DNA of 64,000 nucleotides, taken from positions 1-64,000 of the forward strand of contig JAOAAX010000006.1 of assembly GCA_026418675.1 (NCBI GenBank). The letters run 5' to 3'. Of this stretch, positions 695 through 58,270 are shown one piece after another; the stretch's first letter is position 1; every line of letters starts with the position of its first letter. The stretch is from Chthoniobacterales bacterium. GTDB lineage: Bacteria; Verrucomicrobiota; Verrucomicrobiia; Chthoniobacterales; DYNR01. Under the pieces are notes generated by a model. It searched no databases. It saw nothing but the letters and a program-made list of their open reading frames with translations, and was not told where the DNA came from. Both the position numbers and the translations under genes were made by a program.

Positions 695-1642
695 ATGTTC
701 CTCCTCGAGTTAAAATTCTCCCGCCGCGAGTTCCTCGCAACCTCTGCCAAGCTTGCAGCCCTCTTTGGCTTGCAAAACTCTGCTATAGGGCAAATTTCCC
801 AATCCCTCGAGCAAATAGAAGCAGGAGGGGCGCCAGTTCTCTGGCTCCAAGGCCAATCATGCTCCGGTTGCTCAATCTCCCTGCTCAATACCTACCCACG
901 AAGCATCGTCCAGTTCTTAACAAACGATATTCAGTTGAAATTCCACCAAACCCTCTCTACAGCAACAGGGAAACTTGCTAAAAAAGCAGCAGATGAAGTC
1001 ATCGACCAAGGCAATTACTTCCTCGTCGTAGAAGGCGCTATCCCAGTAGGATTACCCGACGCCTGCCGCTTCGCCCACGAAAATTTCGATGATCAGCTCC
1101 GCCGCGCCATTCCTCGATCCCGAGCAGTCATCGCCGTAGGAGCTTGCGCCGCTTATGGTGGAATCCCAGGCGCAGAAGGCAACCCAACAGGAGCTAAGTG
1201 CCTACGAGAATTCATGAAAAAAGAAGGCTTTCGAGTCCCTCTTATCGCCATACCTGGGTGCCCACCCCATCCAGATTGGATCGTAGGCACGATCACTCAC
1301 GTCCTCAAATTCGGCCTCCCATCCATGGACAAAGATTCCCGTCCTCTCATGTTTTTCCGTAGAACCATCCACGAACAATGCCCACGCTTCTCCTACTGGG
1401 AGCGCAAACACTTTGCCCAGAATTTCGGCGATGAGGGTTGCTTGTTCAAAATCGGGTGCCAAGGCCCCATTACCCATGCCGATTGCACTATCCGCAAGTG
1501 GAATAACGGCGTCAACGATTGCATAGAGTCCGGCGGAGCCTGCACAGGTTGCACTTCCCCTGATTATCCTCGGAAGAAAGATTTCCCATTCTATTACGAA
1601 ATCGGGCGGAGAAATTCAAACTCCTCCCTCTTGGCCTCCTAA
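695..1642 (+). CDS. [NiFe]-hydrogenase small subunit, Tat-exported
   Basis: Electron-transfer subunit of the hydrogenase. A Tat signal (SRREFL at residues 9-14, then a hydrophobic stretch) indicates folded export with the large subunit. Iron-sulfur ligands are visible: proximal cluster Cys56, Cys59, Cys151 and Cys189; distal His226, Cys229, Cys249 and Cys255; medial Cys264, Cys283 and Cys286. The proximal motif reads CSGC, with Gly where oxygen-tolerant enzymes have an extra Cys (CTCC), so a standard 4-Cys proximal cluster is expected. At 315 residues there is no C-terminal membrane anchor and no cytochrome b gene follows, so the enzyme is probably soluble or loosely attached. The order large-then-small is the reverse of the common hupSL/hyaAB order. 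No Shine-Dalgarno is visible before the ATG. Confidence 0.96.
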   Translation: MFLLELKFSRREFLATSAKLAALFGLQNSAIGQISQSLEQIEAGGAPVLWLQGQSCSGCSISLLNTYPRSIVQFLTNDIQLKFHQTLSTATGKLAKKAADEVIDQGNYFLVVEGAIPVGLPDACRFAHENFDDQLRRAIPRSRAVIAVGACAAYGGIPGAEGNPTGAKCLREFMKKEGFRVPLIAIPGCPPHPDWIVGTITHVLKFGLPSMDKDSRPLMFFRRTIHEQCPRFSYWERKHFAQNFGDEGCLFKIGCQGPITHADCTIRKWNNGVNDCIESGGACTGCTSPDYPRKKDFPFYYEIGRRNSNSSLLAS

Positions 1643-1714: not shown

Positions 1715-3193
1715 ATGAAATTATCTACAAAGTTCTTACTGTGGCTCTTACTTGGCTTATCAATTGCAATAGCTGTAACACAAGCCCTCCAATTCCTATT
1801 CTCCAGCTCCAAACTTAACAGCCAGATGCGCAAACTGGCAGAGAACCAAATTAAAGTTCTCGAAGAACGAGAAATAGCAAACGCTTCCACTATTTTCGAC
1901 AGCATCCAACGCGGGGTGAATGATTCTATCGAGCGCGGAGAAATGGAAAAATTCCAACGAATGTTAAACGACCTGCGCGGAATCCAAGGGCTTGATGTCT
2001 ATATCCTCTATGATCGTGTGGGGAATGCGGCCTATGCTACCGATCCTAAATATGTAGGTAAATCAATTGATAGTGAAGTTGTTGAGCGAGTCATCCAAAA
2101 GGGAGAAAATCTCTTTCGCCGTCATGGGAAAACTTTCGAATTTTATCGCCCAATTCCCATTGTTTCTGACTGCCGCCGTTGCCACCACGAATGGCCAGAA
2201 CAGGGAACTTCCGGTGCTCACTTCATCTCCTATTCCACCGCTTCTCTCGAAGCAAGCCAAGAAGCAGTTGCAAAAGACGCTGCTTCCATCCGGCAAAGCA
2301 ATTTCGAAGGAGTCGTCCTCTCTTTCCTAATTCTCGTTCCAACCGTTGCCGGAGTAAGTTGGCTCCTTATAGCGTTATTTGTTAACAAACCCCTCGATTC
2401 AATCATTCGGCGCTTGCGATCCGACGTCGCCGAAGCCCGCGAAGGAGCTCAACACCTTGAAGTTGCTAGTCAACACTTAGCCGAAGGAGCAAGCGAACAA
2501 GCCGCTTCTATCCAGCAAACGAGCGCTTCGCTGGAAGAATTGTCCAGTATGACAAAAATCAACGCCCAAAATAGCCACCAAGCCAAAGAACTTGCGGCAG
2601 AAACTTCACGCTCAGCAGATTCTAGCCAAGAGCAACTTCGGACTATGCTCCAAGCCATGCAGGAAATTCAGGAATCTAGCCGCCAAATTTCTGCCATCAT
2701 CAAGACAATAGACGAAATTGCCTTCCAAACAAACATTCTTGCTCTTAATGCTGCCGTAGAAGCAGCCCGAGCAGGAGAAGCAGGGGCAGGTTTCGCTGTC
2801 GTTGCCGAAGAAGTTCGTAATCTCGCTTCTCGTGTCACTCAGGCAGCAAAAGAAACTGATGAAATGATTGGCCATGCCGTAGCGAAAACCAAAAATGGCG
2901 TCGAAATTTGTAACCGCGTCGCCGAAGCTCTCAATCAAATCTTGCAAAAAACAAAAAGTGTTGACAAACTAGTTGCTGAAGTAGCCGCAGCTTCCAAAGA
3001 ACAGTCCACAGGAATTGACCAAATCGCTCAGGCCGTTACGCAAATGGACGTTACCACCCAGCAACAAGCAGCTCAATCTCAGGAAACCGCAAGCGTCGCA
3101 GCAAGCCTAAAATCCATGTCAGATGGGCTTGAGTCAGCCGTTAATACCCTCGCAGAAATCGTCTATGGAGTGAAGAAAGTTTTAGAAAAATAA
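1715..3193 (+). CDS. methyl-accepting chemotaxis protein with periplasmic c-type heme motif
   Basis: Transmembrane chemoreceptor of 492 residues. Membrane segments lie at about 7-29 and 199-223, enclosing a periplasmic domain of about 170 residues. Near the end of that domain is a single CRRCH heme c attachment motif at Cys153-His157. A HAMP-like linker follows, then the methyl-accepting domain at about 250-490 with the conserved hairpin tip [20 protein letters not shown] at 332-351. The periplasmic part resembles single-heme PAS/Cache-like sensor domains known from delta-proteobacterial chemoreceptors; this is inferred from layout, not alignment. It sits between the hydrogenase and hypC (20 bp before hypC), so it may be cotranscribed and may report redox state, O2 or H2 oxidation to the chemotaxis machinery. 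No other che genes are in the window. Receptor assignment is secure; the ligand is unknown. Confidence 0.93.
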
Positions 3194-3213: not shown

Positions 3214-3483
3214 ATGTGTTTAGCAATACCCGGCAAACTTGTTTCCGTAGAGGATTCCACCGATCCACTTCTCAGAACGGGAGAAGTTGATTTTTCCGGA
3301 ATCCGAAAACAAATTTCGTTAGGTTTTGTTCCCGAAGCAAAAATTGGCGACTACGTCCTCGTTCATGTTGGCACAGCTATCCAAGTCATCAATGAGGATG
3401 AAGCGACAAAAATTCTAAGTTACTTCTCCCAACTCAACCTCGCTGAGGAATTTCAAGAAAACGAAAACACAAATAAAACATAA
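3214..3483 (+). CDS. hypC: hydrogenase maturation chaperone HypC
   Basis: Small chaperone (89 residues) that, with HypD, carries the Fe(CN)2CO group and delivers it to the hydrogenase large subunit. The diagnostic N-terminus MCLAIPGKLV is present; Cys2 is the iron-binding residue once Met1 is removed. The rest matches the beta-barrel family (VDFSGIRKQISLGFVPEAKIGDYVLVHVG pattern, quoted in part: GDYVLVHVG). Length is typical for the family. It begins 20 bp after the chemoreceptor gene and precedes hypD by 90 bp, within a plus-strand run that ends with hypF. HypC proteins can be specific to one hydrogenase; this copy is presumably matched to the enzyme encoded just upstream. Confidence 0.97.
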   Translation: MCLAIPGKLVSVEDSTDPLLRTGEVDFSGIRKQISLGFVPEAKIGDYVLVHVGTAIQVINEDEATKILSYFSQLNLAEEFQENENTNKT

Positions 3484-3573: not shown

Positions 3574-4680
3574 ATGAATCTTCTAGCCCCCTATCGCGAC
3601 GCCCAAAAAGTGCAGTCACTAGCTGCCGAGCTTGCTAGAATCTCCAAGAAACCAGCCGCAATCATGGAAATTTGCGGCGGCCAAACCCATGCAATCCTCA
3701 AATACGGATTAGAACAACTCCTCCCAAAACACATCGAACTTCTCCACGGACCAGGATGTCCAGTTTGCGTTACCCCAGCATCCATCCTCGATCACGCCAT
3801 CTGGCTTTGCCTCAGGCATAATATCACTCTTTGCTCCTTCGGCGATATGCTCCGAGTCCCTGGTCAGCTCGGTTCTCTCGCATGGGCAAAATCCCAAGGC
3901 GGAGATGTTCGAATCGTTTACTCCCCCCTCGATGCAGTCGAATTCGCTCGTCAAAATCCGGAGAAAAAAGTCGTCTTTTTAGCCATCGGTTTTGAAACTA
4001 CTGCTCCTGCCAATGCTCTCGCTGCTCGTAGAGCGAAAGAATTACAACTCCAAAACTTTTGGCTCCTCGTAAGCCACGTTCTTGTCCCGCCAGCCATTTG
4101 CGCTCTCCTTGAATCCCCAGAATGTCGAATCCAGGGATTCCTCGCAGCCGGCCACGTCTGCACCGTCATGGGTTTCCAAGAATACCAACCCATCGCAAAA
4201 AAATACAAAGTCCCCATCGTTGTAACTGGTTTCGAGCCAGTCGATATCTTCCGTGGTATTCTCCAATGTATCCGCCAGATCGAAGCAGGCCTTGCAGAAG
4301 TAGAAAATGCTTATGAGAGAGTCGTTCGGCCGGAAGGAAATCCCACAGCAAAAGCCTTGATAGAAGAGGTCTTTGAAGTTTGCGACCGAGAATGGAGAGG
4401 CATCGGCATCCTCCCAAAAAGCGGATTCCGCCTCCGAGATTGTTATGCCGAATGGGACGCCTCACGAAAATTACCCACTTTCCATCAAAACTCCACTAAC
4501 AACAACAACCTTTCAACCCATTGCCGAAGCGGAGAAGTCCTGCAAGGCAAAATCAAACCACCCGATTGTCCTTTTTTCGGAAAAGAATGCACACCCGAAA
4601 ATCCCTTAGGAGCAACCATGGTTTCCTCTGAAGGGGCTTGCGCAGCTTATTACACCTACCACTACAAAGCAAAGCCCTGA
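3574..4680 (+). CDS. hypD: hydrogenase maturation scaffold HypD
   Basis: HypD (368 residues) is the iron-sulfur scaffold on which Fe(CN)2CO is assembled together with HypC; HypE supplies the cyanide. Seen: MEICGGQTH with Cys34, [11 protein letters not shown] with Cys62 and Cys65, and a C-terminal cysteine set in [18 protein letters not shown] and [10 protein letters not shown] that fits the [4Fe-4S] ligands. Length is normal. It lies between hypC and hypE in the same direction. No ribosome-binding sequence is visible before its ATG. Nothing in the sequence suggests damage. Confidence 0.97.
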
Positions 4681-4736: not shown

Positions 4737-5768
4737 ATGACAAGTTGTCCCTTGCCATTTGAGCCTAAAGACACCGTCACAATGGCCCACGGAGCAGGTG
4801 GCCGCCACACCTTTCGTTTGATCCAAAACATTTTCGCCCCAGCCTTCCATTTATCTTCTAGCCAGCTATCAGACTCAGCCATCGTTGGAGATGAGGAAAA
4901 ATGGGCAATTTCCACAGACGCCCATGTTGTCAGTCCCTTGTTCTTCCCAGGAGGAGACATAGGAACCCTGGCCGCAAATGGCACTTGTAACGACTTGGCT
5001 ATGGTCGGAGCAGAACCAAAGTGGTTAGCAGTGAGTTGGATATTAGAAGAGGGGATCACATTTGATACACTAAACCGAATATCCCAATCCCTCGCAGCAG
5101 CCGCTGCCCAAAATGGCGCTACCATCATTGCAGGGGATACTAAAGTCGTCCCAAAAGGGAAAGGTGACGGCCTATACCTCTCTTCCGCAGGCTTTGGCTT
5201 GCATCGAATGCCATTTATCCCCTCTCCCTCTCGCCTAAAACCAGGCTTGGAGCTCATCATAAGCGGAGATATAGGACGGCACGCTATCGCTATTGCTTCC
5301 CTTCGTGACAACAGCATCGGCTTCTCTGCAGAAATCGCTTCCGATTGCTGTCCACTTTGGCCACTAGTAGCTGCTTTACTGAACAACTCTCTTTATCCAG
5401 CCGCAATGCGCGATTGCACCCGCGGTGGACTCGCAACGGTGCTTGCCGAGTGGGCTGAGGAATCAAACCTAGGCATGGAGTTAGAGGAAGAAGCAGTCCC
5501 TTTACTCGAGCCAGTCCGTGCTGCCTGCGACTTGCTCGGCTTCGACCCCTTGTATCTTGCTTGCGAAGGACGTTTTCTCCTTGCAATAGAAAAAGAAAAA
5601 GTAGAAGACACCCTCAATCTTTTGCGCCAATTCCCAGATGGAAAAATGGCAGCACGCATCGGCAGAGTTACCAACGCTAACCCCGGCCGGGCTGTTGCCC
5701 GGCAACCTTACGGAACAGAGCGCATTCTCGACCGCCTAAGTGGCGAAATCCTTCCCCGAATCTGCTAG
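4737..5768 (+). CDS. hypE: carbamoyl phosphate-derived thiocarbamate dehydratase HypE
   Basis: HypE (343 residues) receives a carbamoyl group from HypF on its C-terminal cysteine, dehydrates it with ATP to a thiocyanate, and passes the cyanide to HypC-HypD. Seen: the AIR-synthase-like N-terminus MAHGAGGR, the STDAHVVSP and ANGTCNDLAMVG motifs, DCTRGGLATVLAEWA, and the hallmark C-terminus PRIC ending in Cys343. Length is usual. It ends 15 bp before hypF, which suggests translational coupling or at least one transcript. Confidence 0.97.
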   Translation: MTSCPLPFEPKDTVTMAHGAGGRHTFRLIQNIFAPAFHLSSSQLSDSAIVGDEEKWAISTDAHVVSPLFFPGGDIGTLAANGTCNDLAMVGAEPKWLAVSWILEEGITFDTLNRISQSLAAAAAQNGATIIAGDTKVVPKGKGDGLYLSSAGFGLHRMPFIPSPSRLKPGLELIISGDIGRHAIAIASLRDNSIGFSAEIASDCCPLWPLVAALLNNSLYPAAMRDCTRGGLATVLAEWAEESNLGMELEEEAVPLLEPVRAACDLLGFDPLYLACEGRFLLAIEKEKVEDTLNLLRQFPDGKMAARIGRVTNANPGRAVARQPYGTERILDRLSGEILPRIC

Positions 5769-5783: not shown

Positions 5784-8198
5784 ATGGAAGGAAGAATTTG
5801 GCAAATTACTGGTTCTGTCCAAGGCGTAGGGTATCGTCCCTGGGTCTATCGCTTAGCCACACAATTGGGCATCCTCGGCTGTGTCCGCAATACTCCTCAA
5901 GGTGTCACTATCGAGGCCATCGCTCCCCCTGAACAATTAGAGAAATTTTCAAAAGCTCTAAAAAACTCCGCTCCCCCTTCCGCCCGCATCAAATCCATCA
6001 AAGAATTCATCTTATCTCCGGATGAACAAATTATTTGGACCTATCTATCTAATTCCACAAACTTCCGAATCGAATCAAGCGATTCGCAAGCTAGCGATGC
6101 AGCTTTCCCACAAATCGCTCCAGACTTGGCAATGTGCAAAGATTGTTTGGCAGAAATCCAAGACCCCAATTCCAGACGTTTCCGCTACCCTTTCACAACA
6201 TGCGCTTATTGCGGACCCCGCTACACAATTTTCCTGGCTCCCCCATTCGACCGACAGCAAACTGTCATGCAAGACTTCCCTCTCTGCCCAGAGTGCAGAG
6301 AAGAATACGACAATCCCTCCGACCGACGCTTTCATGCACAAGCTGTCTCTTGTCCCCGCTGCGGACCCCACCTCCAATTCCTAGATAACAAAGGCAAACA
6401 AATTTCTACACATGAACAAGCTCTAGAAAATGCAGGAAAAGTTCTTCGTGAAGGTGCCATCGTAGCTTCCCTCGGCATTGGAGGTTTCCACCTCCTCGTC
6501 CGTGCCGACTCCCCTGAAGCGGTTCATCGTCTCCGCGTTCGCAAGCATCGCCCTTGGAAGCCCTTAGCAATTATGTGCCGCGAAGTTTCAGAACTCGGTG
6601 ACGCTGTAAAAATTTCCCCAATCGAGCGGGAAATCCTGCATTCTGTAGAAGCTCCAATCGTATTACTGGAAAAAACCGGAAAACCTCCACATTTCGTTGG
6701 AATCGCGGACGGCTCCCCATGCTTGGGTGTTATGTTAGCCTCCACCCCGCTTTACTGGCTTTTACTTGAAAATGTCGGAGTCCCTCTCGTTGCCACAAGC
6801 GGTAACATCAGCGATTCTCCTATCTGCTACACAATCCAATCCGGCCTTCAACAATTAGCTCCCGTTGCTGATTATTTCCTTGTTCATAACCGGCGTATTG
6901 TCCGTCGCTGCGACGATAGCGTCATAAGAGTCATTTCCGAAAAACCTCGTTTAATTCGCAGAGCGCGAGGTTTCGTCCCTATCTCCCTCGAACTCCCTCT
7001 TTTAGAAAATGTTGGAAACAATCAAGAATTCCTAGGCGTTGGAGGGCACCAAAAAAGTTGTCTCTGTCTGCTCTGCAAAAATACAATCCTTCCCTCAGCC
7101 CATCTCGGAGACCTCACCTCCTCATCCGCAAGACTTGAATGGCATAAAGATTTTAACTGGTTGCTAAATATCTCACAAACCAAAACCCCCATCCTCGTCC
7201 GTGATTTGCATCCCGATTACGGCAGCACAATCGAAGCAGAAAAAATTCCCCTCCCTTCCATCGCCGTCCAACACCATGTCGCTCATGCTTTCGCAGCTCT
7301 AGCAGAAACAAACTTTAATCAAGCTATTGCTGTTGTTTGGGATGGAACAGGCTTAGGCACAAACGGAGAAATTTGGGGAGGAGAATTCCTCCGCGTCAAT
7401 TCAAACGGCTCTTGGCAAAGAATCGCCCATCTCAGTAACTTCCTCTTACCGGGGGGAGAATTAGCTGCTGTCGAACCCATCCGCTCCGCAGCAGGTATGC
7501 TCGCAAAAGCTACCTCCCAAGGAATTTTGGATAAAAATTCCCTTCACTCTAGCTTCCCACAAATCAAATCTCAACAAGAGAGCAAGAAACTGGAACTTTT
7601 CCTTGACTATTGTCTCGATAAAAAAGAAAACTGCCTGCAATCCACCAGTGCAGGGCGTTTATTTGATGGAATTGCTTATTTATTAGGTCTTGTAAAAGGG
7701 CGTGTCTCAGAATCACAAGCCGCAACTGCTACCGAAGCTTGTGCAGCAACATTCTATTCATCCTTCCATAACTCATTAGCACAAACAGAAAACGAAATAA
7801 TTTTTTCAAAAATTGAAACGAAAAACTTTAATTCAGTTTTTCTAAAAGTTGATACATCAAACTCGAAAGAAGTTTTCGAAGTATATTGGCCAAACGCTTT
7901 GTTAGCAATAATTTCAGAAAATGATGTTCCCAAAAAGGCTTTCCTTTGGCATTTATTCCTGGCAAAAGCCATCCTCGCCGCTTGCCAAAAAATAAAAATT
8001 AAAAATGTAATTTTAACTGGAGGGTGTTTCCAAAATAAACTCCTCGCTGAATTATCTGCAAGCCTCCTCACCCAAAACGAATTTAAAGTTCATTTGCCTG
8101 AATTATTACCATGCAACGATGGAGGTCTCTCTGCAGGGCAAGTCATTTGGGGAGCTTTAAATAAAACTTATTCCCTACCCCAGAATTATCTGGCATAA
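5784..8198 (+). CDS. hypF: carbamoyltransferase HypF
   Basis: HypF (804 residues) makes the cyanide precursor: it converts carbamoyl phosphate and ATP to carbamoyl-adenylate and transfers the carbamoyl group to HypE. Domains in order: acylphosphatase-like at about 1-90 (SVQGVGYRPW at 11-20); a zinc-finger pair with CxxC at 118/121, 140/143, 168/171 and 190/193; a YrdC-like domain at about 205-395; and a Kae1/carbamoyltransferase domain at about 410-790 with the metal-binding HHVAHAFAALAE. It closes the hyp run. hypA, hypB and a large-subunit endopeptidase are not in the window. Its last 13 bp overlap the 3' end of the convergent kinase gene. Confidence 0.97.
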   Translation: MEGRIWQITGSVQGVGYRPWVYRLATQLGILGCVRNTPQGVTIEAIAPPEQLEKFSKALKNSAPPSARIKSIKEFILSPDEQIIWTYLSNSTNFRIESSDSQASDAAFPQIAPDLAMCKDCLAEIQDPNSRRFRYPFTTCAYCGPRYTIFLAPPFDRQQTVMQDFPLCPECREEYDNPSDRRFHAQAVSCPRCGPHLQFLDNKGKQISTHEQALENAGKVLREGAIVASLGIGGFHLLVRADSPEAVHRLRVRKHRPWKPLAIMCREVSELGDAVKISPIEREILHSVEAPIVLLEKTGKPPHFVGIADGSPCLGVMLASTPLYWLLLENVGVPLVATSGNISDSPICYTIQSGLQQLAPVADYFLVHNRRIVRRCDDSVIRVISEKPRLIRRARGFVPISLELPLLENVGNNQEFLGVGGHQKSCLCLLCKNTILPSAHLGDLTSSSARLEWHKDFNWLLNISQTKTPILVRDLHPDYGSTIEAEKIPLPSIAVQHHVAHAFAALAETNFNQAIAVVWDGTGLGTNGEIWGGEFLRVNSNGSWQRIAHLSNFLLPGGELAAVEPIRSAAGMLAKATSQGILDKNSLHSSFPQIKSQQESKKLELFLDYCLDKKENCLQSTSAGRLFDGIAYLLGLVKGRVSESQAATATEACAATFYSSFHNSLAQTENEIIFSKIETKNFNSVFLKVDTSNSKEVFEVYWPNALLAIISENDVPKKAFLWHLFLAKAILAACQKIKIKNVILTGGCFQNKLLAELSASLLTQNEFKVHLPELLPCNDGGLSAGQVIWGALNKTYSLPQNYLA

Positions 8199-9301
8199 CC
8201 TTCCAGCGGGAAAATTAACCGAATTTCCGTCCCATGCTGATCTTCAGCTTTTAATGCTTCTGTTGAGATAATTTCTATTTTGCCATTGTATTGTTCGACA
8301 AACCGACGAACTATTTGGAGTCCACTTCCTGTTCCCTGCTCCGATAATGTGCCACTCCGAGAAAAAACTCGACTACCAGCCAAAATCGAATCAACCATTT
8401 GCTTCGGCATGCCTATTCCTTCATCTTTCACGCTTATTATTACACACAAAACACCTTCGAAAAAATCTTTCTTTGCTTCTAGGTAGATTTTACTCTCAGG
8501 ATAAGAAAATTTAATTGAATTACTAAGCAAATTGTTTATCACATTATGGATGAATGGGATACGTTCAATGTTAAGTGTCAGATCTTCATTTACTTCAACG
8601 AGAATTTGGATTTTTTTACGTTGAGCTTGGGCCAATAACATCAAGGCAGACGTTTCCAAAGATTCCCGCAACTCGACCTTCTCCTGAATTTTGTTCGAGA
8701 CTGTAAAATTGAAGGTTTTGCGAGCAATATCATCAATAAGCTCAAGCGCACTTCGGCAGGACTCAAGTGCGCTACTCACCGCCGTTGGATCATACCCTTG
8801 TTGAAGCACATCTAGCGCAGAATACGCAGCGCTTATTGGATTGCGCAAATCGTGGCAGAGAATTCGAAGAAGATTTTGTTTCTGAGCAAGCTGTTCTCGA
8901 TAACGGTGGTTGGCATCCGCTATTTGAAGATGCGCTTTCGTGCGAACCACTAACTCAGCAGGGTAAAACGGCTTATCAATGTAATCTATGCCCCCAACTT
9001 GCAGAGCTTGGACTCGAATTTCCGGATTCCCATGCGCAGAGAGAAAAATCACCGGAACATCTCGCCTCAATGGATCTTGCCGTATTCGTTTGCAAACTTG
9101 AATCCCAGATTCTTTCTGCAAAACAATGTCCAGAAAATATAAATCCGGAGGTGCTCCAGTATCCGCAGCATAAAGTGCATCTGCCGTATAAAAAACTGAC
9201 ACTTTACAATTTAAATTTGCCTCAAGGATTATTCGAACCAATTGTGCCGATGATGGCGTATCATCAAGCACAAAAATTGTATATTTCCTCTCTTGATCCA
9301 C
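8186..9301 (-). CDS. response regulator receiver-histidine kinase hybrid
   Basis: Cytoplasmic signalling protein of 371 residues, with the receiver placed before the kinase. Receiver at about 7-125: acidic pair DD at 13-14, phospho-acceptor Asp58 (FLDIV) and Lys110 (IDKPF). Dimerization/phosphoacceptor helix with His150 in LCHDLRNP, then an ATPase domain with an N box (INNLLSNSIKFS), DEGIGMP and GTGSGLQIV. There is no membrane segment, so input probably comes through the receiver. It starts with GTG and lies 16 bp downstream of an HDOD gene in the same direction, so the two are likely one operon. It ends inside the 3' end of hypF. The target is unknown; a link with the hydrogenase is only positional. 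Confidence 0.93.
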   Translation of the reverse strand: MDQERKYTIFVLDDTPSSAQLVRIILEANLNCKVSVFYTADALYAADTGAPPDLYFLDIVLQKESGIQVCKRIRQDPLRRDVPVIFLSAHGNPEIRVQALQVGGIDYIDKPFYPAELVVRTKAHLQIADANHRYREQLAQKQNLLRILCHDLRNPISAAYSALDVLQQGYDPTAVSSALESCRSALELIDDIARKTFNFTVSNKIQEKVELRESLETSALMLLAQAQRKKIQILVEVNEDLTLNIERIPFIHNVINNLLSNSIKFSYPESKIYLEAKKDFFEGVLCVIISVKDEGIGMPKQMVDSILAGSRVFSRSGTLSEQGTGSGLQIVRRFVEQYNGKIEIISTEALKAEDQHGTEIRLIFPLEGYAR

Positions 9302-9317: not shown

Positions 9318-10160
9318 CTAGATGTGAGCTAACAATGATTTTGTCTTTCCAAGCTCAAGGTTGGAAGTTCGCAAAAATTGTAATGTCTCTTCCCTACTTG
9401 CCTTTAACATCTCCCAGTAAGGATGATCCGGCAGCAAATTCCAATCTTCCACTGAATTACTGTGATTGTTTTTTGAAAGTAAATTACTGCAATAATCCAA
9501 TGTCGTTAGTAAGTTGGATTTAGCTCGTGCTTCAGGGTTCGTCTGTTGGCCAATTGGCCCAGTTATTGTGTCGGGAAATTTCCAACGCTCCAAAATCGTT
9601 GCTCCAGCAAAATCATACCGAAATCCCACCATCACTTCTTCCCATTGCTCACAAGGAATGTAGGAATCCCAATATATTTCAATCCTTGCCTCTCGGAGTA
9701 ACTCTTCAATGATAACTTTCCCAATTTGATGGAGCAAACCAATCAAATAAGCCTCAGATTTGGGTGTGTTAGTCAAAAAATAAGTTGTTTCAAGATAAAG
9801 TGCACAAAAATAACTCGTCTCCCAATACTGTCTGGCACTGATTCCATAAGCTTTCAAATCCCTCAAAAAGACACCTTTCGATAAGGCTATGCTTACCATT
9901 CTAAGCAATTCGTTAAAGCCAACCTTCTGTATCGCAGATGAAAGATCCGGACTAAAATTCCCCCTCCGATAAATCGGGCTATTGGCAAGTTTTATAATTT
10001 GTGCCGAAAGATTAGCATCAGAACGAACTAACCTCTCTCCTTGCGATAACTCGGAATTCGGATCTTTAAAAATCTGATGCAATCTGGACAATACGGCCAT
10101 ATTGCCGTGCAAATTCTCAATCCGCTTAATTGCATCGGCAAATTCCTCTTTCGTTTTCAT
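9318..10160 (-). CDS. HDOD domain protein
   Basis: A 280-residue protein with an HDOD domain, a relative of HD hydrolases that usually lacks catalysis and acts in signalling. Seen: the N-terminal helix pattern (LHGNMAVLSRLHQIFKDPN), a stretch SDANLSAQIIKLANSPIYRR typical of HDOD proteins, FNELLRMVSIALSKG, and YLIGLLHQIGKVIIEELL, where the HD-type motif reads HQ instead of HD. The gene precedes the receiver-kinase hybrid by 16 bp. This HDOD-plus-two-component pairing is common in bacteria and suggests a joint regulatory output. No enzymatic role is claimed. Confidence 0.88.
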   Translation of the reverse strand: MKTKEEFADAIKRIENLHGNMAVLSRLHQIFKDPNSELSQGERLVRSDANLSAQIIKLANSPIYRRGNFSPDLSSAIQKVGFNELLRMVSIALSKGVFLRDLKAYGISARQYWETSYFCALYLETTYFLTNTPKSEAYLIGLLHQIGKVIIEELLREARIEIYWDSYIPCEQWEEVMVGFRYDFAGATILERWKFPDTITGPIGQQTNPEARAKSNLLTTLDYCSNLLSKNNHSNSVEDWNLLPDHPYWEMLKASREETLQFLRTSNLELGKTKSLLAHI

Positions 10161-53210: not shown

Positions 53211-54137
53211 TTATACATTCCCATTTTCAGAACAGGCATTACGATCAGGCCGACGACGACCTACTGGATTCGTGTCCGCAGCATGGTAGCTACTACGCAC
53301 AAGCGGACCACTCGCAACATACTCAAATCCAATTTGTAGGGCAATATCTTTCAAAAACTCAAATTTTTCTGGGGGAACATACTCCACTACTGGAAGATGA
53401 CGAGGACTAGGCCGCAAATATTGGCCTACCGTTAAAATACGAACCCCGCTTTCATAAAGATCGTAGAAAGTCTTTATCACTTCTTCCTCTCTCTCTCCTA
53501 GCCCCAACATAATTCCACTTTTTGTCATAATGTGAGGACTGTATTCATGAGCTTTACGTAAAACCTCCAACGAGCGGGAATAACGCGCACGCGAACGAAC
53601 AAGTGGCGTAAGACGTTCAACGGTTTCAATATTATGATTAAAAACATCGGGACCTGCATCCAACACCGTATGGAGAGAGGAGTCGCGGTTATTAAAATCC
53701 GGAGTCAAAACTTCGATAACTATGCTATCGTCCATTTCGCGTATTGCCTGAATAGTCTTTGCGAAGTGACCAGCCCCTCCATCCGGAAGATCATCCCGAG
53801 CGACAGCGGTAATTACAACATGCGTAAGTCTCAAACGCCGAACAGCTTCAGCAACCCGCTGGGGCTCGTCCTCTTCAAGAGGTAAAGGCTTAGCCGTTTT
53901 GACTGCGCAGAAACCACACGCACGTGTGCAATGCTCTCCAGCAATCATAAAAGTTGCTGTTCCCCCACTCCAACATTCCCAACGATTCGGACACTGAGCA
54001 CTTTCGCAAACAGTATGCAGCTTTAGTCCCTCTAGTAAAAATTTTGTCGAAAAGAAAACAGGGTTCGAGGGAAGGCGCACCTTGATCCATCCCGGCTTTT
54101 TTTCTTGATGTAGCGTCGGTGAAATTTTGGGGCTCAT
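53211..54137 (-). CDS. lipA: lipoyl synthase
   Basis: Radical SAM enzyme inserting two sulfurs into octanoyl groups on lipoyl domains. Seen: auxiliary cluster CESAQCPNRWEC, radical SAM CTRACGFC, and the C-terminal RSSY serine ligand. Length 308, usual. It follows mlaA by 8 bp, an unusual neighbour, and so may share the mla transcript. No lipB is in view. Confidence 0.97.
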   Translation of the reverse strand: MSPKISPTLHQEKKPGWIKVRLPSNPVFFSTKFLLEGLKLHTVCESAQCPNRWECWSGGTATFMIAGEHCTRACGFCAVKTAKPLPLEEDEPQRVAEAVRRLRLTHVVITAVARDDLPDGGAGHFAKTIQAIREMDDSIVIEVLTPDFNNRDSSLHTVLDAGPDVFNHNIETVERLTPLVRSRARYSRSLEVLRKAHEYSPHIMTKSGIMLGLGEREEEVIKTFYDLYESGVRILTVGQYLRPSPRHLPVVEYVPPEKFEFLKDIALQIGFEYVASGPLVRSSYHAADTNPVGRRRPDRNACSENGNV

Positions 54138-54145
54138 CCTTACTT

Positions 54146-54973
54146 TTAACGTTTGGCGTGCTTATTGCGAAAATGTATGTATGTCATGCGGGCACTTGTA
54201 TAGCGGTCAATGGCATGTTTCGTTGCCGCATCGTATTCATCCATCCGCTTGGGCAACGTCCGAACTGTATTCGGGCTTGTTATAGCTAATGTCCAGACCT
54301 CCCCTCCAAACGCAAATGTTGCCCAACTCACAGGATTTAACGCATAGTCACCGACCATCCCAACGAAATCCCGAACCGTAGTAGGCCCTAATACAGGCAA
54401 AACTAAATAAGGACCATGCCCTATCCCCCATTTTGCAAAAGTCTGCCCGGTATCTGCTTTCGGTATATCTTTCAAAAATTCAATTTTTTCTGAAGGATGC
54501 CAAACTCCTCCAATTCCCGCTACAGAGTTAACCACAAAGGCACCCAATTCTTTGCCTGCACGATCAAACCGCCCCTGCAATCCATGATTCACAAATCGTA
54601 CAGGGAAAGTTAGATTCTCATAAACATTGTCAATTCCTTCACGAACAATTTTCGGCAAAATAAATTCATAACCATCTGCAACAGGTCGAATTACAAAACG
54701 ATAAAATTCATGGTTAAAGGCAAATATCGCCCGATTGATTGGTTCTAAAGGATCAAAAACATGCGTCCGATGTTCACTAAAACTTCCTAACTCATCTTCC
54801 ACTGGAACCTCTAAAGAGTCTTTCGTAGTTTTGAAACTTTTGCTTTGGGAAATTGTTCCAGCTCTCGAGGTTGTCTTAACTTCCCCAATTTCAGCTGCCT
54901 GACGTGTTGCACATCCGCTGAAAATAAAGCAGACAACAAGAATTAAAATCAGATTCGAAATAAATTTTTTCAC
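54146..54973 (-). CDS. mlaA: outer-membrane lipoprotein MlaA (VacJ)
   Basis: Outer-membrane component that removes misplaced phospholipids from the outer leaflet. Signal peptide with lipobox FSGC at about 18-21, then a variable linker, then DPLEPINRAIFAFNHEFYRF, FPVRFVNHGLQGRF, FVVNSVAGIGGVWHPS and GPYLVLPVLGPTTVRDFVG, all characteristic of the family. GTG start overlapping the mlaC stop (GTGA). 275 residues. Confidence 0.95.
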   Translation of the reverse strand: MKKFISNLILILVVCFIFSGCATRQAAEIGEVKTTSRAGTISQSKSFKTTKDSLEVPVEDELGSFSEHRTHVFDPLEPINRAIFAFNHEFYRFVIRPVADGYEFILPKIVREGIDNVYENLTFPVRFVNHGLQGRFDRAGKELGAFVVNSVAGIGGVWHPSEKIEFLKDIPKADTGQTFAKWGIGHGPYLVLPVLGPTTVRDFVGMVGDYALNPVSWATFAFGGEVWTLAITSPNTVRTLPKRMDEYDAATKHAIDRYTSARMTYIHFRNKHAKR

Positions 54974-55572
54974 GGCATTCGGTTAGCAGTGGTGTGAAGG
55001 GTTTTAGCTACTGCTTCAGCACCTCCCCTTTTATAAATTTCATCAAATTGGCTCCGATAATTCGCAACAAAACTAACACCTTCAATAATAACGTCAGTCA
55101 CTCTCCATTGATTCATCTTATGCATCCTATAAGCAACTTCATATTCGCTCCCCTGATAACGTAAAGTCGTGGGAACTTCCACCCTACCTTGCCCGAGGTC
55201 TCTTGCCGATCGAACTTCAATTTCAGGAAATTCCCCTGGCTTCAATTTGTCGCTGTAGGAACGGATTACCAAAGTAGTAAAGTCAACTGCAGCTTGCTCT
55301 CTCTGGAGAGTTGAAAGTGCCCTCCACCCAGCCCCAATCGCAAGTTGGGTCATTTTTGCAAAGTCAATATAGCGCTCCAAAATTGGCCGAACACTGCGCT
55401 CCAACTCAACCCGATTCCTCGAATTCTTAGCAACTGTTAGAACTTGATTCACAGCAAAACGCAGAGTGTTTTCTGCATCTACCAAACTTTCATTCTCTGC
55501 ATATGTTTTTGCAAATACTAACAAAAAAGCCCACATAATCCACAAAAAGCATATGATCTGTCTCGCTTTCAT
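54970..55572 (-). CDS. mlaC: periplasmic phospholipid carrier MlaC (Ttg2D family)
   Basis: Periplasmic shuttle of the Mla system. From the ATG at 55572 the protein has 200 residues with a signal peptide at about 1-24 (ends AKTYA). The upstream part of the open frame overlaps mlaD and is not homologous. Seen: YIDFAKMTQLAIGAGWRALS, VDFTTLVIRSYSDKL and VTDVIIEGVSFVANYRSQF. Start lies 1 bp after the mlaD stop, so translation is coupled. Confidence 0.92.
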   Translation of the reverse strand: MKARQIICFLWIMWAFLLVFAKTYAENESLVDAENTLRFAVNQVLTVAKNSRNRVELERSVRPILERYIDFAKMTQLAIGAGWRALSTLQREQAAVDFTTLVIRSYSDKLKPGEFPEIEVRSARDLGQGRVEVPTTLRYQGSEYEVAYRMHKMNQWRVTDVIIEGVSFVANYRSQFDEIYKRGGAEAVAKTLHTTANRMP

Positions 55573-55573
55573 T

Positions 55574-56347
55574 TTATTGTTGAGTCGAATTATAGAGAAG
55601 TTCTCCGCTCTTCTGGAAATTATTAACTTCCACTTCCCTGTCTTCTTTATTTTCTGACTCTTGAATGGTAGAATCATTTATTTGCGAAACTTGACCTGGC
55701 TCGGAAGTATTGAACTCCCCTCTTACCGGAGGTGTAGGAGCAGCAATGAACTCATCTGTTGAATGCACGTTCCCCGAAACGTTTACCCTACTTCCTCTTT
55801 CCATATTTAGTAACTCTTTATCCCATCCATTCGCTTTTTTCTCATCAGAAAGCGCGGGGTCCTTTTCGTTTTCCAAATTTGCTGAATTCCTATCCGCTTG
55901 AACTGTTCCAAATGCCATTTTCCCTATAAGCGACTCCAAATCAACAGCAGACTCCGTCATCACAATTCTCTCACCCGGTTGTAGAAAATCTTCTTCAGCC
56001 CCCGGCAATAAAGCTACAAACTTATCCCCAATCAGCCCTGATGTTTTAATTGATGCCATAGTGTCCCGTGGTAATCGAACATCATCCAAAATCCGCATAC
56101 TCACAATTGCACTGTAATCGCTGGGATCAATCTTGATTTTCTCAACTCTTCCAACTGTCACTCCAGCAAGCAAAACACTCCCCCCTTCGTTCAATCCACC
56201 AACATTCGCAAAACGAGCTTCAAGCAAATAACTACCGTGATTCACAAAACTCCCAGCCCCAAGCCGAATTGCTAAATATCCAATAGCACAAATCCCTAAC
56301 AAAACAAAAATCCCCAAAAAAAATTCGACATATCGTTCTTTAATCAT
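55574..56347 (-). CDS. mlaD: Mla inner-membrane MCE protein MlaD
   Basis: Periplasmic MCE-domain subunit of the MlaFED transporter. One N-terminal helix (about 8-30), MCE domain at about 38-120 with ARFANVGGLNEGGSVLLAGV, GRVEKIKI and IKTSGLIGDKFVALLPG. After the MCE core a long (about 115 residues) acidic, low-complexity tail extends well beyond the E. coli protein. Function of this tail is unknown. Start codon overlaps the mlaF stop by 4 bp. Confidence 0.93.
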   Translation of the reverse strand: MIKERYVEFFLGIFVLLGICAIGYLAIRLGAGSFVNHGSYLLEARFANVGGLNEGGSVLLAGVTVGRVEKIKIDPSDYSAIVSMRILDDVRLPRDTMASIKTSGLIGDKFVALLPGAEEDFLQPGERIVMTESAVDLESLIGKMAFGTVQADRNSANLENEKDPALSDEKKANGWDKELLNMERGSRVNVSGNVHSTDEFIAAPTPPVRGEFNTSEPGQVSQINDSTIQESENKEDREVEVNNFQKSGELLYNSTQQ

Positions 56348-57180
56348 TCTTCTTCGTCTGGTGAAATATGTTCCCCCGCTTGAATTGCCACAAGCAAATT
56401 GCGCAAAGCAGCCGTGCTTTCGCGAAATGAAACTACAACAGGCAACTCCGATTCATGAAATTCCTGCGGTGTCCCTGAAAAGCGAATCCTCCCATGCTCT
56501 AGCAATGCTACATAGTCGCTTGTTATCAAAGCTTCCTGCACATCGTGCGTAACAACAACCGCCGTAAAACCAAATTGCATCCGATACTTCGCTATCATTC
56601 CAAAAACAGCATTCCTCCTCAACGGATCAAGCCCAGCCGTCGGCTCATCAAAAAAAACCATCTCAGGCTGTGTCACCAATGCCCGAGCAAGAGCTAAGCG
56701 CTTTTGCATCCCCCCAGAAAGCTGCGAAGGAAAGTGATTCGAATGCTCCAGCAAATCCAACTGCTCAAGCGCAGCCAAACTTCGCCGCCGAATTTCTCCA
56801 TCACTCAGACGCGTCGTCTGCTCCAGTGGCAAACCAACATTCTCAACAGCCGTTAAGGAATCAAATAACGCATTTCCCTGAAATAAAAAACTACATCTAC
56901 GTCGAAATTCTTGCCTATGTGATCTTCGACGAAAATCCAATTTCTCACCATAAAACTCCACAACCCCACAGTCAGGCTTCTCCACCCCAGCTATACACTT
57001 CAACAAAACAGACTTCCCAGCCCCGCTCGAACCCAACACCGTAAAAACACTACCCCGCCAAACCTCCAACCACACGCCATCAAGCACCGTTTTATCGCCA
57101 AAACGCTTACACAAGTCTAAAACTCGCAATAGAGGACATCCCTCGGCATGGAATTTTTTCGGTAAAACCTTTTCCTTCAC
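56344..57180 (-). CDS. mlaF: Mla ABC transporter ATPase MlaF
   Basis: ATPase of the phospholipid transporter, 278 residues. Walker A GSSGAGKSVLL, signature QLSGGMQKRLALARAL, Walker B VFFDEPTAGLDPL and H-loop VVVTHDVQEA are intact. A 35-residue C-terminal part follows the nucleotide domain. Overlaps mlaE by 4 bp upstream and mlaD by 4 bp downstream. Confidence 0.94.
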   Translation of the reverse strand: MKEKVLPKKFHAEGCPLLRVLDLCKRFGDKTVLDGVWLEVWRGSVFTVLGSSGAGKSVLLKCIAGVEKPDCGVVEFYGEKLDFRRRSHRQEFRRRCSFLFQGNALFDSLTAVENVGLPLEQTTRLSDGEIRRRSLAALEQLDLLEHSNHFPSQLSGGMQKRLALARALVTQPEMVFFDEPTAGLDPLRRNAVFGMIAKYRMQFGFTAVVVTHDVQEALITSDYVALLEHGRIRFSGTPQEFHESELPVVVSFRESTAALRNLLVAIQAGEHISPDEEE

Positions 57181-57953
57181 GAAATTAAAAAAGATGTAAT
57201 CACATAATCCGTCGCAAGTATCAAAACACTCGAGACAACAACAGCCCGTGTAGTCGAAAAACTTACAGCTTTAGCCCCTCTCAACCCGCAACGGTGTGCA
57301 TTGTAACCTTGGTGAGCACAAACCCCTATGCACAAAAAACCAAAAACTGCTGCCTTCAAAAAACTCTCCCGCACATCCCTCATCTCAATCGCCTTCTCAA
57401 TAGACGACCAATAAACTCCGGCATCCAATCCCAAGATCCACGAACCAGAAATCCAACCACCCCACAAACCTACTATAACAAAAATCGCCGTCTGCATCGG
57501 AAATACCACAAGCGCTGAAAGAATTCGTGGCGTCACAAGATAACCGTAACTGTTCACCCCCATCGTCTCCAATGCCAAGATCTGTTCTGAATTCCTCTGT
57601 ATCCCAAGCTCGGCAGCCAAAGCGGAGCCCGCCTGACCAACCAACACCAAAGCAGCCAATACAGGTGCCATCTCACGCGTCAAACTTAACGATACAAGAG
57701 CCCCAAGCAAAGTTTCCGATCCAAATCGGTTCAAAACATAATAGCCCTGCAGTCCCAAAACCAAACCTGTAAACAACCCCACAATCACCACAACTGGCAA
57801 ACACAAAACCCCTTGTTCATAAATAGCCCTCCAAACACGCCGCATAAGCCTCCTTGATCCTATAACTCCAGCAACCGTCCGAAACAAAAATAGAGTAAAA
57901 TCCCCAAATTCAGATACAGTTATCCAAAAAAACTTGCCTAAATTTCCTACCAT
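57177..57953 (-). CDS. mlaE: Mla ABC permease MlaE
   Basis: Permease with five to six helices; 258 residues from the ATG at 57953, preceded by purine-rich AGGAGAAGAGG. An in-frame ATG at 57986 would add eleven residues. Seen: LPVVVIVGLFTGLVLGLQGY, LVGQAGSALAAELGIQRNSE, LETMGVNSYGYLVTPR and GVCAHQGYNA, all typical. First gene of mlaEFDCA. There is no MlaB-like STAS gene in the operon. Confidence 0.94.
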   Translation of the reverse strand: MVGNLGKFFWITVSEFGDFTLFLFRTVAGVIGSRRLMRRVWRAIYEQGVLCLPVVVIVGLFTGLVLGLQGYYVLNRFGSETLLGALVSLSLTREMAPVLAALVLVGQAGSALAAELGIQRNSEQILALETMGVNSYGYLVTPRILSALVVFPMQTAIFVIVGLWGGWISGSWILGLDAGVYWSSIEKAIEMRDVRESFLKAAVFGFLCIGVCAHQGYNAHRCGLRGAKAVSFSTTRAVVVSSVLILATDYVITSFLIS

Positions 57954-58270
57954 TTTTGCACACACCTCTTCTCCTAACAAAATCATTCAAAATTATACAA
58001 GCACCAAAACCCCTGAACTCTAATTTTCCTTGATTTGATTTAAACTTGGAATAAAAAAACAATTCTAATAATTTAAAAGGAAAATCATTTTTCCTTGAAA
58101 ATGGAGAGCAAACTCTGCTCCCTAAACACGCGAAATTTATCAGAAAATCCTCACCTAGTTCACTACTCTTTCAAAAAAACAAAAATTTCTGCTCTCACGG
58201 ATGAACTTTACATAAAAAAGACAATAAAATTCTCCATATCTGCACCCGATTCAGTCTGGATCTCTGGCCA
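57954..58270. other. divergent spacer between mlaE and the L,D-transpeptidase gene
   Basis: About 317 bp, strongly AT-rich. It must carry the promoters for mlaEFDCA and for the transpeptidase. I see poly-A/T runs near 58040-58090 but cannot name a promoter. A 74-codon plus-strand frame here looks like chance. Confidence 0.5.

Follow-up and report, generated by a model that had tools for sequence, protein, structure and literature searches.

In this work, we analysed a 64,000-nucleotide stretch of a Chthoniobacterales genome (the window), which begins with the genes of a periplasmic [NiFe] hydrogenase and, directly behind them, the gene of a chemoreceptor with a predicted heme c. Judged from sequence and gene order, this pairing is probably a widespread, undescribed device that steers cells by hydrogen gas. 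We put the odds at about two in three that the large subunit, the small subunit and the receptor together form a periplasmic H2-sensing unit, in which electrons would pass to the receptor heme and steer swimming. Heme-c chemoreceptors and H2-sensing hydrogenases are both already known; for the union of a heme-c chemoreceptor with a periplasmic [NiFe] group 1-type hydrogenase we found no description in the open-access literature that our search covered. A gene cluster with a methyl-accepting chemotaxis protein (MCP) has been tabulated among the neighbours of hydrogenase large subunits, without comment (PMC12727194).

The sequence-only reading that preceded this analysis had placed at 1715-3193 a receptor with a single CxxCH motif in its periplasmic domain, within a run of hydrogenase and hyp genes. 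Both points hold: the open reading frame is present, matches the MCP signalling family and contains exactly one CxxCH, CRRCH, between two predicted membrane helices, and the coordinates and Pfam matches of the flanking genes agree with the gene run and its spacing (Table 1). The gap between the small-subunit stop, ending at 1642, and the receptor start at 1715 is 72 bp, and that between the receptor stop, ending at 3193, and the hypC start at 3214 is 20 bp; judging by these sizes and the common strand, both hydrogenase subunits, the receptor and hypCDEF seem to belong to one operon. The 5' edge of the window falls within the large subunit, whose N-terminal part is encoded by another contig of this genome, C49, that overlaps the window by 16 bp. 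Joined, the two parts give an intact protein of 502 aa with both the RICGVC and the DPCLAC motifs, and a Fur-like gene stands upstream on C49 in the opposite orientation. Beyond hypF, on the opposite strand, lie a response regulator-histidine kinase hybrid (8186-9301) and an HDOD protein (9318-10160); much further along, at 53211-57986 on the reverse strand, are Mla-type lipid transport genes (MlaE, ABC ATPase, MlaC, MlaA) and then a radical SAM gene.

Table 1. Hydrogenase, receptor and maturation features of the window, with the basis of each assignment
Feature	Coordinates	Strand	Basis or remark
Hydrogenase large subunit, C-terminal 211 aa	2..637	+	PF00374 E 1.3e-80; ends DPCLACAVH-stop
Hydrogenase small subunit	695..1642	+	PF01058, PF14720
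Tat motif SRREFL, small-subunit residues 9-14	719..736	+	Read from sequence; RR motif in relatives
Chemoreceptor (MCP), 492 aa, ATG start: TM, periplasmic Cache-type domain, TM, MCP signalling domain	1715..3193	+	
Periplasmic heme-Cache sensor domain (predicted), about residues 31-195	1805..2299	+	AlphaFold model; Foldseek matches 3b42/3b47, Cache domains
Met77, likely distal axial heme ligand	1943..1945	+	48/48 heme receptors, 0/7 heme-less
CRRCH heme c attachment motif (predicted), residues 153-157	2171..2185	+	
Arg155	2177..2179	+	55/55 hydrogenase-linked receptors; absent from 12/13 unlinked paralogues, first set
MCP signalling domain PF00015, residues 292-446	2588..3052	+	E 1.8e-46
hypC, hydrogenase maturation	3214..3483	+	PF01455 E 4.1e-25
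hypD	3574..4680	+	PF01924 E 2.2e-150
hypE	4737..5768	+	AIRS/AIRS_C domains; name from gene order
hypF	5784..8198	+	zf-HYPF, HypF_C, Acylphosphatase, Sua5_yciO_yrdC domains

The source genome (2.34 Mb, 94% complete) also encodes HypA, cytochrome c assembly proteins, three CheA-type proteins and, as judged by eye, FliD/FliS-type flagellar genes; no HycI-type endopeptidase was found in it at E 0.001. Homologues of the small subunit within the order are distant (at most 44% identity) and confined to few genomes, and the one other genus of the family that was searched has none. Two other MCPs of the source genome, on contigs C75 (L006, L046 6526-8064) and C89 (L009, L047 2828-4579), have a CxSCH periplasmic domain of Tll0287-like look, the one on C75 adjoining FliS/FliD-type genes. 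We considered them as copies of the window receptor and rejected this, as their domain is a different one and no hydrogenase accompanies them.

The pairing extends well beyond this genome. Conservation of the gene order in relatives had been proposed as a check, and we scanned named genomes with a profile built from two small subunits; loci were thus selected without regard to the receptor, although both seeds came from receptor-linked loci. The scan gave 66 loci of the same lineage, 64 of which have at least 300 bp of downstream sequence and were counted. In 60 of these 64 hydrogenase-found loci a receptor of the same family is the next gene after the hydrogenase, with 51 gaps between -30 and +40 bp and 22 exact 4-bp overlaps. 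The MCPsignal family matches 59 of 61 receptors, the window receptor included, and the other two are contig-end fragments; the idea that the longer partner proteins are kinases or GGDEF proteins was dropped on this count. CxRCH occurs in 51 linked receptors. By record title, the hosts, most of them metagenome-assembled, include members of Desulfobacterota, Verrucomicrobiota, Lentisphaerota, Omnitrophota, Sumerlaeota, Riflebacteria, Planctomycetota, Spirochaetota and Magnetococcales.

The distance matrices of small subunits and receptors are strongly correlated (Mantel r 0.87, 0 of 999 permutations as high), which follows from shared operon descent and thus indicates joint inheritance, not contact. 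Three hydrogenases of the lineage (L079, L095 and L112) have no adjacent receptor, and locus L098 runs into a contig end; the genome of L079 encodes, elsewhere, a divergent FRCH protein with a response-regulator gene (L207/L228). One deltaproteobacterial locus (L058 691-4638) has the order small subunit, receptor, large subunit, which puts the receptor between the hydrogenase genes.

The hydrogenase itself looks like a sensor, to judge by its trimmed large-subunit end and a neighbourhood free of respiratory partner genes. Its small subunit has the Tat signal SRREFL and 12 Fe-S ligands (Cys/His) and lacks a C-terminal membrane helix; the RR motif also occurs in those relatives whose N-terminus can be read, and all Fe-S ligands are conserved in the lineage, the fourth medial Cys included. 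No residue follows DPCxxCxxH in 57 of 57 measurable large subunits, compared with 14-15 residues in three outgroup loci. Hydrogenases without this C-terminal extension have been listed for groups 2b, 2d, 4c, 4e and 4g, and group 1 is absent from that list (PMC7294309). The lineage does not belong to group 2b: the large-subunit tree, which has long branches, unites its 58 members and keeps HoxC outside (SH-aLRT 90). The small-subunit tree splits the lineage from the outgroup with support of 97. The nearest solved structures of both subunits are group 1a NiFeSe enzymes, and NCBIfam NF033181 scores above its cut-off for two relatives. Our searches detected no endopeptidase gene in the receptor-linked loci, several outgroup loci having one, and, by a count of multiple CxxCH motifs, next to no multiheme ORFs. 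They also showed no cytochrome b gene, with a query that matched no locus at all and so came without a positive control.

Turning to the receptor, the window protein has only three Cys, and a CxxCH motif arises in 0.01% of its shuffles. Its sensor domain is covered by no Pfam family: the sCache_heme family PF11845 gives no match in the window receptor at E 1 and is not among the Pfam families matching the 61 family members at E 0.001. A HAMP domain, which many but not all MCPs have behind their second TM helix and which is present in 35 of the 61, finds no match in the window receptor either. Single-protein searches with the sensor domain returned no relative in assembled genome contigs or plasmids and no other member in 97 relatives, and the best PDB matches of its sequence reach only E 0.4. 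The AlphaFold model built from an alignment of 55 relatives has a mean pLDDT of 92.8 (the one built without an alignment reached 51 and was discarded), and in Foldseek it matches 3b42 and 3b47, two Geobacter heme-c receptors, as well as Cache domains such as those of WalK, CitA and DctB. A helix at residues 151-156 with CRRCH lies between strands 140-148 and 165-174 of the model, so that the CxxCH sits between late strands of a Cache fold, a trait of the sCache_heme family.

All 48 receptors with CxxCH have Met77, and none of the 7 that lack the motif does; as this residue accompanies the heme motif without exception and disappears with it, it is the likely axial ligand. In the Geobacter heme receptors, the axial ligand is a Met, which leaves on oxidation (PMC8396549). 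This precedent and the fold of the Geobacter homologues, together with the co-loss of Met77, make a His/Met c-heme bound through Cys153, Cys156, His157 and Met77 likely in the window receptor. The potentials of the fold matches GSU0935 and GSU0582, -251 and -156 mV (PMC8396549), are within reach of H2.

The heme c that the sequence-only reading had assigned to the receptor domain thus gains support from the joint loss of CxxCH and Met77 and from a predicted fold like that of solved heme-c receptors, but it does not extend to the whole family, as 9 of 60 linked receptors have no heme motif. One of the nine, truncated by a contig end, is too short for a verdict; the other eight indicate that heme is not needed everywhere and that electron transfer to heme is not universal. 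The heme-less linked receptors, mostly from Planctomycetota and Lentisphaerota, fall into one branch of the small-subunit tree (support 97), which means a single change in heme state, namely a loss if the tree is correctly rooted. Elsewhere in the family, a Magnetococcales receptor (L081 7272-9389) has two CxxCH motifs, CLRCH and CIRCH, and is possibly a diheme version. In Lentisphaerae GWF2_57_35, a second, convergent MCP of 703 aa (L042 5299-7410, record of L108) and a possible substrate-binding protein (L042 4284-5276) adjoin the heme-less hydrogenase-linked receptor.

The heme-less branch bears on the idea that the hydrogenase signals by docking or conformational change, as proposed for the regulatory hydrogenase and HoxJ, with the heme as an accessory. 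The heme-less receptors have kept Arg155, Asp152 and the pairing with hydrogenase, as would be expected of signalling by contact, but the remaining 48 of 48 strictly keep the heme motif and Met77, which is hard to explain if the heme is idle, and we regard this account as distinctly unlikely.

Arg155 (third in CxRCH) is shared by all 55 aligned linked receptors, heme-less ones included, whereas 12 of 13 unlinked paralogues from the same genomes or the same phylum have E, G, Q, D or M at this position. For heme receptors, the comparison of 48 of 48 linked with 1 of 13 unlinked gives a Fisher p of 7e-12 without correction for kinship; with kinship considered, four independent pairs are left, of which 3.5 agree on average and none disagree (p 0.125). 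The association of Arg155 with hydrogenase linkage is therefore a strong lead, not proof. In a second genome set, the extra Arg-type receptors of L209, L210, L212 and L215 are hydrogenase-linked and that of L208 is not, and the non-Arg receptors L211 (near a contig end), L213 and one in L227 have no hydrogenase adjacent. The unlinked Arg-type exceptions, L170, L208 and L207, come from genomes that have such a hydrogenase elsewhere. Because Arg155 outlasts the loss of heme, a role in hydrogenase contact is more likely than one in heme binding.

The sequence-only reading had named receptor relatives without hydrogenase as evidence against it. Such relatives were found, and a strict rule that none exists had to be abandoned; they are paralogues only, nearly all without Arg155. 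Some belong to the same Cache family, carry CxECH, CxGCH or CFECH and lie directly beside multiheme cytochrome genes (L176 and L177, Desulfuromonadales MAG-BB-08; L045, G465); these are possibly cytochrome-coupled versions of the same device, and, to judge by their position, periplasmic redox proteins in general may supply the input of this family. In Omnitrophota SURF_12, a 940-aa protein with an Arg-type domain (DCIRCHTNW; L170 6627-9449), followed by a response-regulator-like gene and encoded away from the hydrogenase of that genome, may be a kinase version that reads the same hydrogenase in trans.

Relatives of this kind, which may read the redox state of cytochromes, also lend some weight to a metabolic explanation, in which H2 uptake by the hydrogenase feeds periplasmic cytochromes and the receptor keeps watch on how reduced that electron pool is, that is, energy taxis. 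The closest solved relatives of the enzyme are metabolic periplasmic NiFeSe hydrogenases, and its large subunit is the only one of a NiFe hydrogenase found in the source genome, which counts against a dedicated sensor and makes a metabolic role possible, most of all there. We nevertheless consider energy taxis rather unlikely: no electron-acceptor gene lies beside the hydrogenase in the receptor-linked loci, the large subunit is trimmed as in the regulatory hydrogenase, and the near one-to-one pairing and an Arg155 all but confined to linked receptors argue for direct contact. The sequence-only reading had left the choice between the redox output of H2 oxidation and O2, and between H2 taxis and energy taxis. 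Its link to the hydrogenase stands, and the 60/64 pairing and the large-subunit terminus of H2-sensor type make H2, sensed via the hydrogenase, a better candidate than O2 or the general energy state.

Among characterized receptors, DcrA, GSU0582 and GSU0935 (sCache_heme / DUF3365 / PF11845) likewise fuse a periplasmic Cache/PAS-like fold with one covalent-heme motif to an MCP, and the probable Met axial ligand of the window receptor is a further likeness. The window family differs from them in its lack of a PF11845 match, in its CxRCHxxW signature and in being encoded with a hydrogenase, of which the sCache_heme paper makes no mention (PMC12889525). The signalling sCache_heme members tested so far behave as NO sensors, NO binding having been reported for one such protein (PMC12889525), which counts against the H2 reading, and DcrA and the Geobacter receptors have been described as redox/O2 or NO/CO binders. 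That the window receptor is a sensor of NO, CO or O2 of this type, merely sharing an operon with the hydrogenase, is still highly improbable, as neither chance nor a regulatory neighbourhood would be expected to yield a pairing across many phyla with matching trees, 4-bp overlaps and a residue all but confined to linked receptors.

On the hydrogenase side, HoxBC/HoxJ (HydDB group 2b) also combines a large subunit without C-terminal extension with a signalling gene directly downstream. However, HoxC falls outside the window lineage in the large-subunit tree, and the window-lineage enzyme is Tat-exported, has its large subunit encoded first and is partnered by a transmembrane MCP. The regulatory hydrogenase (RH) is cytoplasmic and acts through the PAS kinase HoxJ. 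The group 1a [NiFeSe] and [NiFe] enzymes (1cc1, 4kl8, HysAB), the best solved matches of both subunits, share the four medial-cluster Cys, but the window lineage has Cys, not Sec, no C-terminal extension, the large subunit first and the receptor as gene partner. Group C2 of the [FeFe] hydrogenases, 'chemotactic (putative)' in HydDB, is likewise a proposed link between H2 and methyl-accepting chemotaxis proteins, but it is an unrelated enzyme class; the HydDB scheme names MCP coupling for this putative group only and lists no [NiFe] group with MCPs (PMC5037454).

In the H2-sensing unit that we favour, H2 would be oxidised at the NiFe site and the electrons would travel through the Fe-S clusters of the small subunit to the heme c of the docked receptor. 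Heme reduction would switch heme ligation or spin state and with it the Cache conformation, in the way suggested for the Geobacter heme receptors, and the MCP domain would then alter CheA activity and swimming. Arg155, beside the heme, would help to form the surface that docks on the hydrogenase. In the heme-less branch, contact would be the only route left for the signal from the hydrogenase, and the existence of that branch indicates that such signalling may also work. The sequence supports the export signal, the full set of Fe-S ligands, the sensor-type large-subunit end, the heme and axial-ligand residues, the MCP output and the near-obligate pairing; heme attachment, docking, electron transfer, the sign of the response, H2 as the stimulus and H2 taxis are the steps that we infer. 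We also lean, if modestly, towards a broader proposal. The enzymes would be an unclassified, widespread periplasmic [NiFe] lineage dedicated to sensing and not to metabolism. Their large subunit would have lost its tail separately from that of the regulatory hydrogenases, and they would report H2 to the chemotaxis array by passing electrons to a docked heme-c receptor, heme-free in one branch, with Arg155 as a specificity residue.

H2 is a major currency of anoxic ecosystems, and little is known about how bacteria move up or down its gradients. If our reading is true, the pairing would provide a concrete molecular basis of H2 taxis in sulfate reducers, Verrucomicrobiota, Planctomycetota and others, and would represent a second origin of hydrogenase-based sensing. 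Caution would then be due with annotation, as sensors may be hidden among the 'group 1a' hydrogenases that carry a metabolic annotation. Further, receptors coupled to an enzyme that reduces their heme would be a general design, as the related receptors beside multiheme cytochromes suggest.
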